Shown in pieces: positions 18,547 through 28,010 of a DNA stretch of 64,000 nucleotides. This DNA is from Lysobacterales bacterium (GTDB lineage: Bacteria > Pseudomonadota > Gammaproteobacteria > Xanthomonadales > SZUA-36). The notes below the pieces were generated by a model. It had not been told where the DNA came from. It ran no database searches and saw only the letters and a program-made list of their open reading frames with translations. The DNA is taken from assembly GCA_021648125.1 (NCBI GenBank), contig JAKITK010000010.1, positions 1-64,000 of the forward strand, in the 5' to 3' direction. Each line of letters opens with the position of its first letter. The stretch's first letter is position 1. The position numbers were made by a program, and so were the translations under genes.

Positions 18547-18614
18547 GGGTAAATTTACCTTATTCAGGCAGGGTAAAGTTACCTATTGATGGTTTGTAAA
18601 AACTTTGCTACTGT
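18547..18614 (+). promoter_or_regulatory. promoter with two GGTAAATTTACC-type operators (copy 1)
   Basis: Palindromes GGTAAATTTACC (18548-18559) and GGGTAAAGTTACC (18571-18583) lie directly before a -35-like TTGATG (18586-18591) and a 17-bp-spaced TACTGT (18609-18614). The same layout, operator touching the -35, recurs at 21266-21309. Position upstream of a weak -35 suggests activator binding, plausibly by the AraC-type regulator of this island. Confidence 0.5.
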
Positions 18615-18630
18615 GGAGCTGTCATCGCAA

Positions 18631-18697
18631 ATGGAGCTTGTGGTGTTGCATTGATGTGATTGGCAAGAGGGAGCCGTGAGATCCAGTTAACTGGATA
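18631..18697 (+). repeat. microcin-island leader repeat, copy 1
   Basis: Shared with 21326-21392 and, from GATGTGAT onward, 27744-27788. It contains GGAGCTTGTG (a ribosome-binding site plus a four-codon mini-frame GTG GTG TTG CAT TGA), a GGC...GCC hairpin within GGCAAGAGGGAGCC, and a 16-bp perfect palindrome ATCCAGTTAACTGGAT. It joins directly to a truncated CPBP gene. Confidence 0.65.
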
Positions 18698-19079
18698 TTT
18701 ACTATCTCGCTATAAAGTCAATACGGCCATAATTTTATCAGCCATTATTTTTGGTATTTTTCATGGCAGTGGGTTTTTTAGTGCTTTTTTCGGAGGTGTT
18801 TATTTGGCAGTTGTTTATATGATTTTCCAGAATATTTTTGCGTGCATTATGGCGCATAGCATGGCAAATATATTTGTATTATTTGCCCCAAAGTTAGTGG
18901 CAAACTTCATACCTTACTCATTACAGCAAGTGAACGAGTCTCCTTTTATTGCTTTAAGTATTATTCCCCCAGTGTTGGTTTTGACTTTTTTTGTGGTGTT
19001 TATTGCTGTTTTTTGGGACAAAAGAAAGAACCATCCTTTTTCCTATAAGAAAAAATACTGGAGAAAAAATACTAGGTAG
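18698..19079 (+). pseudogene. 5'-truncated CPBP intramembrane protease
   Basis: The 3' half of a CPBP (Abi/CAAX) glutamic protease gene. Motif 2 AIIFGIFHGSG and motif 3 IMAHSMANIFV are present, but motif 1 (EExxxR) is missing; the coding sequence starts abruptly at GYLLSRYKVN right after the leader repeat. The only in-frame starts lie in the leader repeat, so it is unlikely to make an active enzyme. CPBP proteins are often self-immunity proteins in bacteriocin loci, which fits a lost immunity gene of an earlier cassette. Confidence 0.7.
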
Positions 19080-20362: not shown

Positions 20363-20382
20363 TGTACTCCAAATGGAGTGCA
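20363..20382 (+). promoter_or_regulatory. operator-like inverted repeat before dinJ-like gene
   Basis: TGTACTCC and GGAGTGCA flank AAAT, with one mismatch, ending eight bases before the ATG at 20391. RelB/DinJ antitoxins repress their own promoters through such palindromes. Confidence 0.45.
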
Positions 20383-20390
20383 ATCACAGC

Positions 20391-20651
20391 ATGAGTGTAA
20401 AAATACAAGCACGAATAGATGAAACCCTAAAAACAGAGGGTGAGTTAATTCTTAAAAAAATTGGATTAACTACCACTGAGTTAATGAAAATGACTTTTAG
20501 GCAACTGGTCATACGTAAAGGCCTTCCTTTTGAAGCCACTATTCCTAATGTACAAACGCTTAAATCTTTTGATGAAGCTAATAACCCTTCAGAAAACATA
20601 ACTTATAAAGATGCAAAATCTGCATTAGATGATGTTTGGGACGAAGATTAA
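20391..20651 (+). CDS. RelB/DinJ-family antitoxin
   Basis: 86 residues. N-terminal RHH segment (VKIQARIDETLKTEGE, IGLTTTELMKMTFRQLV) followed by the typical KGLPFEATIPN linker and an acidic toxin-binding tail ending DDVWDED. The ATG at 20391 is chosen over one at 20373 because the family begins MSVKIQAR-like and the operator lies just upstream. The cognate YafQ-like toxin downstream is broken, so this antitoxin is now an orphan. Confidence 0.85.
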   Translation: MSVKIQARIDETLKTEGELILKKIGLTTTELMKMTFRQLVIRKGLPFEATIPNVQTLKSFDEANNPSENITYKDAKSALDDVWDED

Positions 20652-21265: not shown

Positions 21266-21309
21266 GGGTAAATTTACCCATTGACACATTGTAAAAAGGT
21301 TGATATCTT
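21266..21309 (+). promoter_or_regulatory. promoter with GGGTAAATTTACCC operator (copy 2)
   Basis: A 14-bp palindrome GGGTAAATTTACCC (21266-21279) sits one base before a consensus -35 TTGACA (21281-21286); 17 bases on is TATCTT (21304-21309). It drives the leader, the octamer ORF and the AraC-type gene. Same architecture as 18547-18614. Confidence 0.65.
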
Positions 21310-21325
21310 AAAATTTACATCACAA

Positions 21326-21392
21326 AAGGAGCTTGTGATGTTGCATTGATGTAATCGGCACTAGGGAGCCGCGGGATTCCATTAACTGGATA
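21326..21392 (+). repeat. microcin-island leader repeat, copy 2
   Basis: AAAGGAGCTTGTGATGTTGC begins the copy: a good ribosome-binding site followed by GTG ATG TTG CAT TGA, a four-codon mini-frame. Then come a CGGC...GCCG hairpin and a decayed version of the GTTAAC palindrome (CCATTAACTGG). It lies in the untranslated leader of the AraC-type gene. Confidence 0.65.
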
Positions 21393-21416
21393 AATTAAAA
21401 AGGAGTTGTACCTAAC

Positions 21417-21509
21417 ATGGCCCACAAGCCCACAAGCCCACAAGCCCACAAGCCCACAAGCCCACAAGCCCACAAGCCCACAAGCCCACAAGCCCGGGCG
21501 GCAACCTAA
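21417..21509 (+). CDS. octamer-repeat ORF upstream of araC-like gene
   Basis: ATG at 21417, with AAAGGAG ending 11 bases upstream, opens a 30-codon frame made of nine CCCACAAG octamers (21421-21492). The product is a repeating AHKPTSPQ octapeptide. Its TAA overlaps the next ATG (TAATG, 21507-21511), so translation may be coupled to the AraC-type gene. Loss of one unit, or gain of two, would fuse this start in frame to that gene. Candidate phase-variation switch. Confidence 0.55.
   Translation: MAHKPTSPQAHKPTSPQAHKPTSPQARAAT
21421..21492. repeat. nine tandem CCCACAAG octamers
   Basis: A pure simple-sequence repeat with nine identical 8-bp units. Because 8 is not a multiple of 3, slipped-strand changes alter the reading frame. 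None of the three frames of the repeat contains a stop on the plus strand. Confidence 0.95.
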
Positions 21510-21907
21510 TGGGCAGCGTTGCGAGATATTACCACGAAGAGATATGTTCAAAACAATTGCAAACTAAACTCAACGAACTAATTGAGTTGTCTTATCATCG
21601 AGCAGATCTAAAAAACAGTTGCCTAGCTAAACAGCTTGGTTTAAGCAATAGAGATTTAAATCGAAAATGTAAGGAACATTTTCAAATGACCCCCAAAGCT
21701 TACCTCACCGATTACCGACTAAATAAAGCCATTGAGTTTATCCTTGAGGGCCAAGCGGTTGGAAATATTGCTTTTGATGTCGGCTTTTCTACGCACAGCT
21801 CCTTTGGAAGGAGCTTCAAGAGACATTTTGGCTGTAGCCCTTCGGAATATACTGAGAAATATATGCACAAATATGCTCAAAACTCCGATTTGGCCGAAAA
21901 TGGATAG
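21509..21907 (+). CDS. AraC-family transcriptional regulator (DNA-binding domain only)
   Basis: 132 residues from the ATG at 21509, or about 160 if fused to the octamer peptide. It contains the full AraC/XylS double helix-turn-helix: LKNSCLAKQLGLSNRDLNRK, then FILEGQAVGNIAFDVGFST and HSSFGRSFKRHFGCSPSEY. The N-terminal sensing domain usual in the family is absent. There is no good ribosome-binding site for 21509 itself, so expression probably depends on the upstream ATG at 21417. It heads the microcin genes and is the likely activator. Confidence 0.8.
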   Translation: MGSVARYYHEEICSKQLQTKLNELIELSYHRADLKNSCLAKQLGLSNRDLNRKCKEHFQMTPKAYLTDYRLNKAIEFILEGQAVGNIAFDVGFSTHSSFGRSFKRHFGCSPSEYTEKYMHKYAQNSDLAENG

Positions 21908-22033
21908 CGATTGGCCATTTATGGATAACGGGAAGGCGCTTTTGTCCAGTACTATTATTGCGTCCGGTCACAACTGGACATTGTCTTTTAACTTGAAGTG
22001 TTACAACTAAAGTAGCATGCAAAGGAGTTTGAT

Positions 22034-22240
22034 ATGCGTGAATTAAGTATGAATGAAATTAGTATTGTAAGTGGTGGCCATAATGATGATGGTGGTGGTG
22101 ATTCGAGCCGTAGAGATGGTCCAGATGATGAGACATGGTGGGATACAGTTCGCAGGGCCGTAAGGGAAATACCTGAGCTGCATGACGATGCTGTTACGGC
22201 TATTGTGGATGTAGCATGCAGGGTCACCGGTAAGTGTTAA
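22034..22240 (+). CDS. double-glycine-leader microcin precursor
   Basis: 68 residues. The leader MRELSMNEISIVSGG closely resembles class II microcin leaders such as that of colicin V (MRxLxxNExxxVSGG). Cleavage after GG would give a 53-residue peptide that begins HNDDGGGDSS, is acidic and Gly-rich at first, amphipathic in the middle (WWDTVRRAVREI) and ends CRVTGKC, where two Cys could form a disulfide loop with each other. AAAGGAG lies seven bases before the ATG. Export and processing would be by the C39 transporter encoded at 23434. Confidence 0.82.
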   Translation: MRELSMNEISIVSGGHNDDGGGDSSRRDGPDDETWWDTVRRAVREIPELHDDAVTAIVDVACRVTGKC

Positions 22241-22327: not shown

Positions 22328-23119
22328 GTGTTAACTCTTAGTGATGGAAAAATAACTTTTGTACGCCTGGTTTTTGGCTATTTAATTGGCAGCTTAATCT
22401 CGTTAACTTTATACTTCACCTTTTTTGAAGATAGTCAATATAGTCTGGCTTATACGCATTTGGTTAAGTTTTCATTCCTGCTATTTTGGTTCACTGTTTG
22501 TTTCTACCCAAATAAGCTGTGGTACAAAACAGTCTTTAAAGTTGAAAATAAACTTCCCCCTCTTTATTTGCTAGTTTCTTGTTTGATTGTAGGTGCCATT
22601 CTCTTCAGAGTGGGTTATGAAAACTTATTATACAACTATAAGTTTTATTTCACCCCGGAAACATTGAGTCATATTGCTGGCTCAACTAAAAGTATGCGCT
22701 TAGGATTGGGTGATATTCTGGGCTCAGTAATAATGGCGCCGATAGTTGAAGAGTTTTTTTTCAGAGGAGTATTGCTTTATTATTTATGTAATAAAATGCA
22801 GAAAAAGTATGCCATTATCTGTTCTGCTATTTTGTTTGCGCTTCCACATATGACTCTATTTATGGTTATTCCCGGGATCTTATTAGCCAGTGTATATTTA
22901 AGATATGGTATCTTCGCATCCATTCTGGTGCATGCGCTAGGCAACTTAACTCTTTTTATTATTTACATAAGTACGAGCACGAGTAGACTTGATTATCTAA
23001 ATGTAATAGATAGTATTTGGGCAGAAATATTAGGGGCTATAGTTTTTGTTATAACGTTATTTTTTCTATATACCCTCATACCAAAGAGAATGTTTAGTAA
23101 TAGAAGTCGAAATGTGTGA
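22328..23119 (+). CDS. CPBP-family intramembrane protease, candidate immunity
   Basis: 263 residues, GTG start, about seven or eight hydrophobic segments. All CPBP motifs are intact: IVEEFFFRGVLLYY (EExxxR), AILFALPHMTLF (FxxxH) and ILVHALGNLTLF (HxxxN). The family includes CAAX-type prenyl proteases and, in bacteriocin loci, self-immunity proteins whose protease motifs are needed for protection. Its place between the precursor and the exporter makes immunity the best hypothesis; a maturation role is the alternative. Confidence 0.85.
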   Translation: MLTLSDGKITFVRLVFGYLIGSLISLTLYFTFFEDSQYSLAYTHLVKFSFLLFWFTVCFYPNKLWYKTVFKVENKLPPLYLLVSCLIVGAILFRVGYENLLYNYKFYFTPETLSHIAGSTKSMRLGLGDILGSVIMAPIVEEFFFRGVLLYYLCNKMQKKYAIICSAILFALPHMTLFMVIPGILLASVYLRYGIFASILVHALGNLTLFIIYISTSTSRLDYLNVIDSIWAEILGAIVFVITLFFLYTLIPKRMFSNRSRNV

Positions 23120-23156: not shown

Positions 23157-23385
23157 GGATATCTATTCCGCCAACAAGCGATCGACGAGCAAAAAGATCG
23201 TTTATATGGTGAAGTCATCATCACTCAACCACTCTCTTTTTACCTGATCACTTTTGGTGTTTTGGTTATTGTTGTTTGCCCTACACCTAGAACGGATCAC
23301 TGATATTGCCCATGCAGTGCCTGAGGCCATAACTACGCTTGCCCCAGTTACTCAAGAAGAAGGGGTTGCAGGCCATATTGAATTA
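23157..23385 (+). pseudogene. chimeric scrap of hlyD-like and exporter genes
   Basis: 23157-23277 translates as LFRQQAIDEQKDRLYGEV then TQPLSFYLITFGVLVIVV, an HlyD-family N-terminus related to but distinct from the intact gene at 25584. It is joined at 23278 to 108 bp nearly identical to 24794-24900, the linker between the membrane and ATPase domains of the intact exporter. Frames are broken. The scrap is evidence of a second exporter/adaptor set that was largely deleted by recombination. Confidence 0.8.
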
Positions 23386-23433: not shown

Positions 23434-25530
23434 GTGATCAGCGAACTTAATTTTTCAGGCCGAAAGCGTCTTCCGGTTATTTTACAAACGGAAGCTATGG
23501 AGTGTGGTTTGGCTAGCCTGACCATGATTGCCCGGTATTATGGTCATGATGTTGATCTTAATGGCATGCGGCAAAAGTTTTCTGTGTCCCTCAAAGGCGC
23601 ATCTCTGGATGCTATCATTGATATGGCAGCAGCGCTTGATTTAGGCTCGCGGGCTTTGCGTCTTGAGCTTGAACATTTACCACAGCTACAAACCCCTGCC
23701 ATATTGCACTGGGACTTAAATCACTATGTTGTACTCAACAAAATAGTAGGTGAAAAAGTTCACATTCACGACCCGGCCCTGGGTCTGAAAGTTATGAGCC
23801 TAAAGAAATTTTCCGAGCACTTTACCGGTGTGGCACTTGAGCTGACTCCAACAATGAGTTTCACAAAACAGGTCGCTAAGGAGAAAATGCGACTGTCGCA
23901 ACTTTGGGGGAGATTGGTTGGGCTTAAACGGGCGCTCTTGCAACTGCTGATATTGTCTATTGTAATGCAGCTTATCGTACTTGCCTCGCCGTTTTATCTG
24001 CAACTGGTTGTTGATGAGGCTGTGGTCAAGTTTGATGCTAAATTTTTGCTGGTGCTTGCCCTTGGGTTTGGTGCACTAACTGTCATTCAGCAAATTGCCA
24101 GTTTGATGCGCGAATGGACAATTCTTTATTACGGCCATCAGATGTCATTCCAGATGGTGGCTAATATCTTCAAACACCTCATTCACCTGCCTACGGATTT
24201 CTTTGAGAAGCGACATATTGGCGATATCCTGTCGCGTATGGCTTCCACTGCCCCGATCCAAACAGCGCTCACTCAAAGCCTGGTCGCTGGGATTATTGAT
24301 GGCCTTATGGCGGTGATTACAGGAGTCGTTATTTTCATTTATAGCCCACTATTGGGTGCCGTTGTACTAGTATCGGTGTTTCTATTGTTATTGGTGACAA
24401 GCTTGTTTTATCCGTTCCTGCGACGCGCGCAGGAGGAAACTATAATCACCAGTGCCAAAGAAAACACGCATATGATTGAGAGTATTCGGGCTGCCACCCC
24501 AATTAAATTATTTTCTGCACAAAACCATAGAGTATCAATATGGCGTAATCTGTTTGCCGATACGATCAACGCGAATGTGGTGCATGGCAAATATGGCATA
24601 TGGTTGAGCACACTACAGGGTCTTATCACCGGCTTGCAAACCATACTTGTCGTCTACTTTGGGGCGAAACTAATTTTATCAGGTGAGGTTATCTTTACCG
24701 TTGGCATGTTGTTTGCTTTCATGTCATATCGACAAAGCTTTACCAACAGCATTACTTCTTTATTTAATAAGTTTATCGAGTTCAGATTGCTTGGCCTACA
24801 CCTAGAACGGATCGCTGATATTGCCCATGCAGTGCCTGAGACCACAACTACGCTTGCCCCAGCTACTCAAGAAGAAGGGGCTGCAGGCCATATTGAATTG
24901 CGAGACATCCGTTTCAGGTACTCACCAGCGGATCCGTGGGTGTTGGACGACATAAGCCTAGATATTAAAGCGGGTGATTTTGTGGCTCTCACGGGCCCAT
25001 CTGGTGGTGGTAAAACCACACTGCTAAAGCTTATGTTGGGGCTTTATGTGCCAACCGAAGGTGAAATATTAATAGATGATCACCCATTGACTGATGCCAA
25101 TAAAATGGCTTGGCGCAGGAAAATTGGTGTGGTTATGCAAGACGACCAACTGCTCTCCGGTACAATTGCTGACAATATCAGTTTTTTTGATCCGAAAATT
25201 GATATGGAGCATATTTACAAAGTCGCCGCCCAAGCCCAAATACACACTGATATTCTCGCCATGCCTATGGGCTACCTGTCTATGATCGGTGATATGGGCT
25301 CGGCCCTGTCTGGTGGGCAAAGGCAGCGCGTTCTATTAGCAAGAGCACTCTACAAAAATCCGCAAGTGCTCTTTCTTGATGAAGGCACAGCAAATCTTGA
25401 CGCAGATACTGAAAAGGTCATCGTAGATGTTATCGCCGGTCTCCCGATTACAAGAATAATCGTTGCTCACCGGCCGGAGTTTTTACAAAGAGCGGATTAT
25501 AAAATTGTAATAAGTAATATTGCAAAGTAA
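23434..25530 (+). CDS. C39-peptidase ABC exporter for microcins
   Basis: 698 residues, GTG start behind AAGGGAAAGGG. Domain order: C39 peptidase (1-135) with the catalytic Cys in QTEAMECGLASLTM and the His in HWDLNHYVVLNK followed by the Asp of HDPALG; a six-helix membrane domain (about 160-440); an ATPase with Walker A GPSGGGKTT, signature LSGGQRQR, Walker B VLFLDEG and H-loop AHRPE. CvaB-type: it cleaves double-glycine leaders and exports the peptide. All catalytic residues are present, so it is probably functional. Confidence 0.93.
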   Translation: MISELNFSGRKRLPVILQTEAMECGLASLTMIARYYGHDVDLNGMRQKFSVSLKGASLDAIIDMAAALDLGSRALRLELEHLPQLQTPAILHWDLNHYVVLNKIVGEKVHIHDPALGLKVMSLKKFSEHFTGVALELTPTMSFTKQVAKEKMRLSQLWGRLVGLKRALLQLLILSIVMQLIVLASPFYLQLVVDEAVVKFDAKFLLVLALGFGALTVIQQIASLMREWTILYYGHQMSFQMVANIFKHLIHLPTDFFEKRHIGDILSRMASTAPIQTALTQSLVAGIIDGLMAVITGVVIFIYSPLLGAVVLVSVFLLLLVTSLFYPFLRRAQEETIITSAKENTHMIESIRAATPIKLFSAQNHRVSIWRNLFADTINANVVHGKYGIWLSTLQGLITGLQTILVVYFGAKLILSGEVIFTVGMLFAFMSYRQSFTNSITSLFNKFIEFRLLGLHLERIADIAHAVPETTTTLAPATQEEGAAGHIELRDIRFRYSPADPWVLDDISLDIKAGDFVALTGPSGGGKTTLLKLMLGLYVPTEGEILIDDHPLTDANKMAWRRKIGVVMQDDQLLSGTIADNISFFDPKIDMEHIYKVAAQAQIHTDILAMPMGYLSMIGDMGSALSGGQRQRVLLARALYKNPQVLFLDEGTANLDADTEKVIVDVIAGLPITRIIVAHRPEFLQRADYKIVISNIAK

Positions 25531-25583: not shown

Positions 25584-26819
25584 ATGAGCGGGCTATTCCG
25601 GAAAGAGGTAATTGAGAAGCAATCACAACGCCATTTGGGTGATGTGTTTTTGTCCACTCCATTAAGTTTTTGGGCCATTACTGGGCTGCTTGCGCTTATT
25701 ATGGTCGGCTTGGTTATTGTGGCAGTATTTGGTGAGTATGCACGCAAGGAAAGAGTTGTAGGTGTTATTGTCCCAAGTAAAGGCTTGGTGCAAATTATCC
25801 CCCAACAAACAGGCGTGTTTGCAGAGATATTTGTCGATGTTGGCGATATTGTTGATCGGGGCACACAGCTTATCAAGATTAATAATGATACCGCACTCGC
25901 AGGTGGAAATTCGATATACGAGGCCTTACTTGCTGAAATGGGAACCGAGAAAGCGAACCTGGTTTCTCAGCTACAAGCTGTCCCAAGTCAATACAAATTA
26001 ACTAAAGCTCGCCTTAAAGCCCAAAAAGCGGAATTTGCAGCCGAAGCAGAGCGGGCGCTTGCTCAAATTCAAATTCAAACTCGGACTGTAGAGCTTGAGA
26101 AAGATTTATTGAAGCTAATGCAAAAGCTGTTTAAAGATGAAGTGGCGTCCATGCTTGAAGTGAGCGCTCAGGAAAGAAGTTATCTTGCTACTAGGCAAGC
26201 CTTGAATAATCAGGAAAATAACCGCTTAAAAGTTTTGGCACAAGTTGGGGATATTGAATCACGGATTGTGATGTTAGACCTTGAGCAAGCCGCCCAAGAG
26301 AATAAAATCAAAAACCAGATAAGTGCTTTAGAGCAAAGCATAATCCGCACAGACTCCCAAGGTAGCTTAATCATCCGCTCGCCTGTAAAAGGCCATGTCA
26401 CTACGATAATCGCCCGCAAGGGTCAGGCGACGAGTACCAAAACAGTTATGTCGATACTACCAGAAGGTGGGGAGTTGCTAGTGGAATTATTTGTGCCTAC
26501 GCGTGCAGCAGGGTTTGTGAAAGCGGGGCAGCCTGTACGCTTGCTTTATGATGCATTTCCATATCAGAAGTTCGGTTTCTTTAATGGACGAGTTGAGCAG
26601 GTTACTAAAACTGTTGTTAATACAGCTAACTTTACTAATGCACCGCAACTCGCGGAACCTGTGTTTTTGGTTACCGTATCGGTCGACCAACAATTCATAG
26701 ATACAATGGGCGAAAGATTTCCATTACAGGCAGGTATGTCTTTATCAGCCGACTTGATATTGGAAGATAGAAAAATATGGGAATGGGCCTTTGGGCAATT
26801 ATTGGGTGCTACGCAATAA
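25584..26819 (+). CDS. HlyD/CvaA-type periplasmic adaptor
   Basis: 411 residues. A cytoplasmic start SGLFRKEVIEKQ, one membrane helix (ALIMVGLVIVAVFGEY), a lipoyl/barrel half-domain (GLVQIIPQQTGV), a long alpha-hairpin (about 110-250), the second half-domain with IRSPVKGHVT and a beta-barrel. It links the ABC exporter to an outer-membrane TolC channel. No tolC is in the window, so a chromosomal TolC must be shared. It forms an operon with the exporter, 53 bases apart. Confidence 0.92.
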   Translation: MSGLFRKEVIEKQSQRHLGDVFLSTPLSFWAITGLLALIMVGLVIVAVFGEYARKERVVGVIVPSKGLVQIIPQQTGVFAEIFVDVGDIVDRGTQLIKINNDTALAGGNSIYEALLAEMGTEKANLVSQLQAVPSQYKLTKARLKAQKAEFAAEAERALAQIQIQTRTVELEKDLLKLMQKLFKDEVASMLEVSAQERSYLATRQALNNQENNRLKVLAQVGDIESRIVMLDLEQAAQENKIKNQISALEQSIIRTDSQGSLIIRSPVKGHVTTIIARKGQATSTKTVMSILPEGGELLVELFVPTRAAGFVKAGQPVRLLYDAFPYQKFGFFNGRVEQVTKTVVNTANFTNAPQLAEPVFLVTVSVDQQFIDTMGERFPLQAGMSLSADLILEDRKIWEWAFGQLLGATQ

Positions 26820-27717: not shown

Positions 27718-27743
27718 CTATGACAGTAATTAATTTTCTAACA

Positions 27744-27788
27744 ATGATGTGATCGGCACGAGGGAGCCGTGAGATTCAGTTAACTGGG
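27744..27788 (+). repeat. microcin-island leader repeat, copy 3
   Basis: GATGTGATCGGCACGAGGGA, then GCCGTGAGATTCAGTTAACTGG: the second half of the leader repeat found at 18631 and 21326, with the CGGC...GCCG hairpin and CAGTTAACTG palindrome. The upstream operator and promoter half are absent. It ends 40 bases before the second precursor gene. Confidence 0.65.
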
Positions 27789-27827
27789 CATTCAATGTGT
27801 AAATTTTAAATTAAATAGGAAAAAAAT

Positions 27828-28010
27828 ATGCGTGAATTACCAATGAATGAAATAGAGGAGGTTAGCGGGCGGGGGCCTGCTCCGGTAGTTTGGGCCGCAG
27901 CCCAAGTCGCTAGGTGTGTAGCAAGTAAAGCTTGTGAAAATTCAGTAAAAGTAGGTGGTTTTGCCGCAGCTGGCGCTGCTGCAGTTGGGTACGGAAACAA
28001 CAAAAAATGA
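27828..28010 (+). CDS. second microcin-like precursor with GR processing site
   Basis: 60 residues. The leader MRELPMNEIEEVSGR is a clear paralogue of the leader at 22034, but the last Gly of the double-glycine is Arg. The core begins GPAPVVWAAAQVARC, contains two Cys six residues apart in a helix, and ends in an Ala/Gly-rich hydrophobic stretch FAAAGAAAVGYG with a basic tail, typical of pore-forming class II microcins. TAGGAAA precedes the ATG. Whether the C39 peptidase accepts GR is uncertain. Its stop overlaps the next start (ATGA). Confidence 0.75.
   Translation: MRELPMNEIEEVSGRGPAPVVWAAAQVARCVASKACENSVKVGGFAAAGAAAVGYGNNKK

Follow-up and report, generated by a model that had tools for sequence, protein, structure and literature searches.

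A tandem octamer behind a start codon as a likely contingency switch of an AraC-type regulator beside a bacteriocin-like operon

The locus and its genes

The window, i.e., the whole stretch of DNA that was analysed, is the first 64 kb of contig C26 in a draft genome of 3.23 Mb and 111 contigs, and the features of the locus within it are collected in Table 1. A tandem octamer array starts one base 3' of an ATG at 21417 and leads up to the gene of a short AraC-type regulator, beyond which lies a microcin-like gene cluster. The regulator has the two-HTH DNA-binding domain of the AraC/XylS family (PF12833, 5.3e-26), and in its 132 residues only this domain was matched, the ligand-binding/dimerisation domain that is usual in most members not being found. 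Better matches to the AraC domain elsewhere in the order lay within open frames of about 865-1500 aa. A distant Bacteroidales match to the domain, at 33%, was set aside. A RelB-type antitoxin gene (20373-20651) was noted upstream of the AraC module.

The genes that follow the regulator include a double-glycine precursor, a C39 ABC exporter and an HlyD adaptor, the three constituents by which a class II microcin operon is recognised. No Pfam or NCBIfam match was found for the 68-aa microcin-like precursor itself, and the cluster is likely a bacteriocin-like exported-peptide operon whose antibacterial activity is inferred. AraC operators are typically direct repeats at two-turn spacing, and the TGGATAGC repeats of the direct-repeat box fit this description. 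The box is exact only here and twice in the locus of a sister species, in the latter as a 21-bp array of 2.9 copies; there were no further convincing copies of the box TGGATAGCnnTTGGC in the window. That it serves as an operator for the AraC protein is possible from sequence alone, there being no binding data, and control of the microcin operon by the regulator is inferred, not shown, resting on adjacency, on the conserved direct-repeat box between the genes, and on the shared leader described below.

Two duplications were observed at the cluster. The 5' end of an acyl-CoA dehydrogenase gene, with its upstream region, is duplicated at 84-88% on either flank of the microcin segment (18142-18341/26910-27111 and 18447-18536/27103-27189), which looks as if the segment may have been inserted with part of the target copied. 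In addition, 113 bp of the C39-ABC exporter gene (24787-24899) are copied just upstream, at 23272-23384 (94%).

Table 1. Features of the locus in window coordinates, followed by leader-bearing loci on other contigs of the genus
Feature	Position or contig	Strand	Remarks
Third leader copy	18624..18707	+	Upstream of truncated CPBP gene 18660-19079; no array
Palindrome GGGTAAATTTACCC	21266..21279	.	Perfect; just upstream of the -35 box
Sigma-70-type promoter, TTGACA-17-TATCTT	21281..21309	+	TG before the -10 box; 10/12 matches; a lone such hit is not significant
Conserved 5' leader element, genus-specific	21319..21397	+	Lacks 10 nt kept in the sister copy
Shine-Dalgarno AAGGAG of upstream start	21400..21405	+	Predicted anti-SD duplex -8.2 kcal/mol; identical in G003
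Frame of upstream ATG, nine units as assembled	21417..21509	+	30 aa; TAA overlaps the AraC ATG
Octamer array	21421..21492	+	Nine perfect CCCACAAG units
AraC-type regulator	21509..21907	+	132 aa; DNA-binding domain only, HTH_18 at residues 39-116
Direct-repeat box TGGATAGC-N13-TGGATA	21901..21927	+	At the AraC end, upstream of the peptide gene
Class II microcin-like precursor	22034..22240	+	68 aa; double-glycine leader MRELSMNEISIVSGG
Rce1/CPBP-family membrane protein	22328..23119	+	PF02517, 3.6e-16; possible immunity protein
C39-peptidase ABC exporter	23434..25530	+	
HlyD-type adaptor of the exporter	25584..26819	+	
Second leader copy	27720..27801	+	Upstream of second double-glycine-type peptide 27828-28010; no array after ATG
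CAACACG array	C125 (G003)		3.1 copies; after leader and ATG
CAACACAG array	C134 (G003)		5.4 copies; after leader and ATG
CAGCA array	C79 (G000)		4.8 copies; after leader and ATG
CAACA array	C100 (G002)		3.0 copies; after leader and ATG

The octamer array and its reading frames

The array, called by TRF at 21420-21495 (period 8, 9.5 copies, 100% match), is by far the strongest short-period array of the 64-kb window, its whole units being trailed by a partial CCC. Targeted pattern searches, which were not exhaustive across the genome and the genus, found it once in the 3.23-Mb draft genome and, in 39 genomes of the family, sampled at one genome per species, only in the window species and the sister species G003. 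No array or module was found outside the genus in viral contigs, plasmids or a sample of 369 genomes of the class. A scan of 145 kb for perfect arrays (period 5-9, three copies or more) returned only two besides both AraC arrays, and a chance origin is therefore excluded.

A perfect non-triplet tandem array directly 3' of a start codon is one criterion for a contingency locus, and it was met. The repeat contains no stop in any frame because its 8-bp unit yields the same eight codons in each, the translation being AHKPTSPQ in rotation. With the nine units of the assembly, the frame of the upstream ATG stops at a TAA (21507-21509) whose last A is common to the AraC ATG at 21509 (TAATG). With 8, 11 or 14 units the upstream ATG is fused in frame to AraC, giving proteins of 160, 168 and 176 aa, and with 10 or 13 units it reads a third frame that stops 59 nt beyond the AraC ATG. 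The further criterion, that unit number sets whether the full ORF matches the frame of the strong start, was thus met in silico.

The regulator's own ATG has a predicted anti-SD duplex of -5.8 kcal/mol, the median over 44 long window ORFs being -3.75, and its predicted accessibility (0.20 vs a median of 0.42) is below that of most. The poor accessibility is attributed, again by prediction, to pairing: the start codon lies within AUGGGC, and every GCCCA of the repeat is a potential pairing partner for its UGGGC. As the predicted SD is usable, the regulator may be made in all three frame states, and a start that is weaker, not dead, raises the possibility that these states differ in level (high, medium, low) and do not simply turn the regulator on or off, an inference from sequence alone.

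An earlier note, made before any of these comparisons, had described nine perfect units one base past an ATG with its own Shine-Dalgarno sequence, a TAATG junction at nine units, fusion at eight or eleven, and a third frame at ten; all of these claims held exactly. Its claim that no good ribosome-binding site precedes the regulator's ATG held only in part: that start is weaker and less accessible, yet has a usable predicted SD.

The promoter and the leader element

The predicted promoter is conserved in G003, and its TTGACA is also present in the leader copies of C125, C134, C79 and C100; lying upstream of the array and being conserved in the sister species and most leader copies, it should therefore transcribe the array. 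When two mismatches to the palindrome GGGTAAATTTACCC were allowed, three sites were found in the window (21266-21279, 18547-18560 and 18571-18584) against 0.35 expected. All three adjoin leader promoters, and similar boxes are present in the G003 copies; the palindrome may be the operator of a dimeric regulator that remains unidentified, for which there is only sequence evidence.

Comparison of the window with itself showed the AraC promoter-leader to be repeated at 18570-18697 and partly at 27742-27804, and a covariance model raised the count to eight leader copies in three species of the genus: three in the window, the AraC leader of G003, and those of G003 C125, G003 C134, G000 C79 and G002 C100. 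Outside these species, the same model detected the leader element neither in the rest of the family nor in 398 genomes of the order. The third window copy, together with the truncated CPBP gene that it precedes, is likely a decayed member of the leader family.

Whether the leader acts as a structured RNA is less clear. An Rfam search gave only chance-level matches, none on the leader, and single-sequence folds of leader plus array were no better than those of shuffles. RNAalifold, run on an automatic leader alignment, produced one 4-bp hairpin. A hand alignment suggested a three-way junction, for which 6/300 column shuffles were as good and towards which the alignment leaned. A structured leader is thus possible and its structure unproven.

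The locus in a sister species

G003, a congeneric species, has a regulator that is 80% identical to that of the window and shares the promoter, leader, Shine-Dalgarno sequence, ATG and TAATG junction. The number of array units differs between the two species, being nine in the window species and 13, i.e., the third frame, in G003. The coding flank is 14% divergent, and both arrays are perfect, with all nine shared units identical. At 14% divergence the chance of seeing no difference over 72 sites is 1.9e-5, and such perfection would be expected if slippage homogenised or turned over the array. The interval between the array and the AraC ATG has two substitutions, both synonymous in the fused frame (Pro CCG/CCA and Asn AAC/AAT), which hints, if only weakly, at translation of the fused frame.

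The core of the regulator is under purifying selection, with a pN/pS between the two species of 0.16 over codons 15-116, and codons 2-14 are unconstrained (1.15). The core is constrained even with the strong upstream start out of frame in either assembly, and the pattern would fit an N-terminal tail that is tolerated before a functional domain.

The surroundings of the module differ between the two species both upstream and downstream. The cargo 3' of AraC is the C39-ABC microcin cluster in the window and, in G003, a thioredoxin-like/HlyD-like/MacB-like cluster with Cys-rich peptides; in both species it resembles an exported-peptide cluster.

Two G003 contigs end inside arrays. Contig C6 ends within the octamer array, having exactly 133 bases in common with the start of C96, which bears the 13 units and the regulator; after its terminal ...CCCA the next base would be G in the 13-unit allele and C in a longer one. 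Contig C46 ends within a (CAACA)11 array directly 3' of an ATG, and after its terminal ...CA the sister loci continue with G (exit), whereas a longer allele would continue with A. Contig ends at the bases where alleles diverge are what mixed unit numbers would give, and this is a possible reading of C6 and C46; low coverage, amplification stutter and assembler limits are not ruled out, and contig-end overlaps elsewhere in G003 left the assembler k-mer length undetermined. The end of C46 (4890-5120) has leader-like sequence, an SD and an ATG before its array, and C46 likely carries a further repeat-gated locus, the gene of which the assembly lacks.

Other repeat-gated loci and alternative readings

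Each leader copy on C125, C134, C79 and C100 precedes an SD and an ATG, with a tandem array starting directly after the ATG (Table 1). Behind each of the four arrays is an ORF with a hydrophobic, signal-peptide-like start and cysteines, the signal peptides having been judged by eye. In G003 (C96) the peptide that comes first behind AraC has this layout too, with ACAAC in 4.6 copies, though no leader was detected. Seven loci have a known downstream gene; at each of them only one of three unit-number classes reads the full ORF, and the assembled arrays are out of frame at six of the seven, near the two thirds that might be expected for randomly drifting frames. In C134, C79, C100 and the C96 peptide there is no in-frame start before the signal peptide save the ATG that precedes the array, and the array must therefore gate expression at those loci.

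The C79 and C100 ORFs are 41% identical and share a neighbourhood, both lying beside the same 613-aa transporter-like gene; both are intact and out of frame as assembled, with a pN/pS of 0.64 and synonymous sites near saturation. The secreted protein of C125 is followed by a CPBP/Rce1-family protein, a family also found behind the window microcin. On C134 (111-2060) and C79 (1404-2357), unannotated proteins with a single hydrophobic stretch at the N terminus (about 225-317 aa) come after the gated secreted genes; the C134 pair is 53% identical, and the partners of C79 and C100 are 28% identical.

These loci bear on three rival readings of the array. The first is length tolerance, i.e., that translation of AraC begins at its own ATG (21509) in every case and that the upstream ATG and array form a short leader ORF of irrelevant length. 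In its favour are the predicted SD at 21509, the conservation of the AraC ATG and HTH domain whatever the unit number, and the assembly of both species outside the fused frame. Against it, the four loci just described have the array-preceding ATG as their only in-frame start, the better SD and its ATG are conserved, and the AraC start region can pair with the repeat; we consider it unlikely.

The second is a leader-peptide switch, in which array length moves the point where ribosomes stop and so acts on translation of the regulator (coupling) or on transcription (attenuation), fusion being incidental. The TAATG overlap is conserved, and a repeat-bearing leader peptide is documented to control pili in this way (pil1, Streptococcus gallolyticus; PMC3894217). 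No terminator-like hairpin was found on the + strand between 21309 and 21907, however, so that attenuation is without a key part, and the arrays of the sister loci sit inside the secreted gene's own frame. We regard this reading as very unlikely.

The third holds that the repeat is neutral, has no regulatory effect and is merely carried by a mobile promoter-leader-AraC module; it draws on the differing genomic surroundings in the two species, which would allow the module to have moved as a unit. It is all but excluded by the presence of independent arrays (CAACACAG, CAACACG, CAGCA and CAACA) in the same place, behind the same leader and before unrelated genes, the background being about two arrays per 145 kb.

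A proposed switch

Our preferred reading, which we consider likely, is that the array is a simple-sequence contingency switch, worked by slipped-strand mispairing, that gates a stand-alone AraC DNA-binding protein encoded next to a bacteriocin-like operon and within a set of repeat-gated secreted peptides. Transcription would start near the predicted promoter and ribosomes at ATG 21417, on its good Shine-Dalgarno sequence, and the gain or loss of 8-bp units would cycle the frame of this ATG through three states. Where n = 2 mod 3 (8, 11, 14), the AraC DNA-binding domain would be fused via a probably disordered AHKPTSPQ tail and fully expressed. Where n = 0 mod 3 (nine, as assembled here), ribosomes would stop at TAATG and the regulator would arise by re-initiation or from its weaker, partly occluded start, at an intermediate or low level. 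Where n = 1 mod 3 (13, as assembled in G003), ribosomes would pass the regulator's start out of frame and expression would be lowest. By prediction, the AraC start codon may be opened only by ribosomes that translate through the array. The regulator would in turn use the 21-bp direct repeats that lie in the gap to act on the adjacent exported-peptide operon. Other genes for secreted proteins that are repeat-gated stand behind this promoter-leader too, and together with the AraC locus they form a set confined to the genus.

The data establish the anatomy of the locus, the differing unit numbers of the two species, the recurrence of the leader and the purifying selection on the regulator. How the three states rank and which operon is the target are inferred, as is slippage within cultures, no unit change having been seen within a lineage. 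Also weighing against a switch, several sister arrays have only about 3-5 units and perhaps seldom slip, two window leader copies have no array, and AraC codons 2-14 are unconstrained.

The earlier note had proposed that slipped-strand mispairing switches the dose or form of the regulator, which is supported, with in-culture switching and microcin control inferred only. Of the two results that it had named as refuting, a transcription start downstream of the repeat was not found, a conserved promoter being predicted upstream, and unit number proved not to be invariant among relatives (9 vs 13). Beyond its reach was the recurrence of the leader, four other copies of which drive an ATG and a 5-, 7- or 8-mer array, with only one of three frames giving a signal-peptide protein.

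A bolder reading, which we are inclined to doubt without dismissing it, is of a genus-specific portable cassette, comprising promoter, possibly structured RNA leader, start codon and short repeat, placed before bacteriocin-like peptides and the AraC gene, so that each cell would have a random mix of active peptides and the regulator three outputs (fused, coupled and blocked). Repeat-driven phase variation is best known from the surface structures of host-adapted bacteria; here, in an organism of which only draft genomes are known, what it apparently gates is a regulator of transcription together with several bacteriocin-like peptides that are exported. If this is true, antagonism would be a bet-hedged trait, with only some cells paying for, or advertising, a given weapon. 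One recurring leader with arrays of differing units also offers a natural series on how switches arise and spread between genes.

Comparison with known systems

Our literature search found no repeat-gated or phase-variable microcin regulator or bacteriocin-like peptides; its coverage was limited, and this is weak evidence of novelty. The mechanism proposed is like the simple-sequence contingency of opa, modA and lic1 (PMC3960869, PMC3899988). In Neisseria opa (CTCTT, in the signal-peptide coding region) a non-triplet array near the start sets the frame by its unit number and a gene family shares the device, as do the loci here (PMC3960869, PMC3899988), and the sister secreted-protein loci would work in the same manner. 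The opa products are outer-membrane adhesins of pathogens, whereas those here are bacteriocin-like secreted peptides and an AraC protein, with units of 5, 7 or 8 bp and a shared promoter-leader.

The pil1 leader peptide of S. gallolyticus (GCAGA) likewise has its array in a short upstream ORF whose stop is shifted by unit number (PMC3894217), but pil1 uses a premature terminator that is absent here, where one frame runs into the regulator as a fusion and a second stops at its start codon. Repeats that alter the form or dose of a regulator, and through it the targets, are known from the Mga poly-C tract and the Spy1336/R28-Spy1337 intergenic tract of Streptococcus pyogenes (PMC10330708, PMC7098570). 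Those are homopolymer tracts, within the Mga gene or intergenic, whereas the repeat here is an octamer in a 5' coding region, before a stand-alone AraC domain and a bacteriocin-like cluster. The hmwA octanucleotide GCATCATC of Haemophilus influenzae biogroup aegyptius also has an 8-bp unit, varying in number between strains (PMC3309571), but it is in the promoter region and would act on transcription, whereas the array here is 3' of both promoter and ATG. As for the cluster, class II microcin operons are alike in their double-glycine precursor, C39 ABC exporter and HlyD adaptor, and the CAAX-protease-like neighbour is as in microcin S, the immunity gene of which was reported to be of the CPBP/Rce1 family (PMC3316575).
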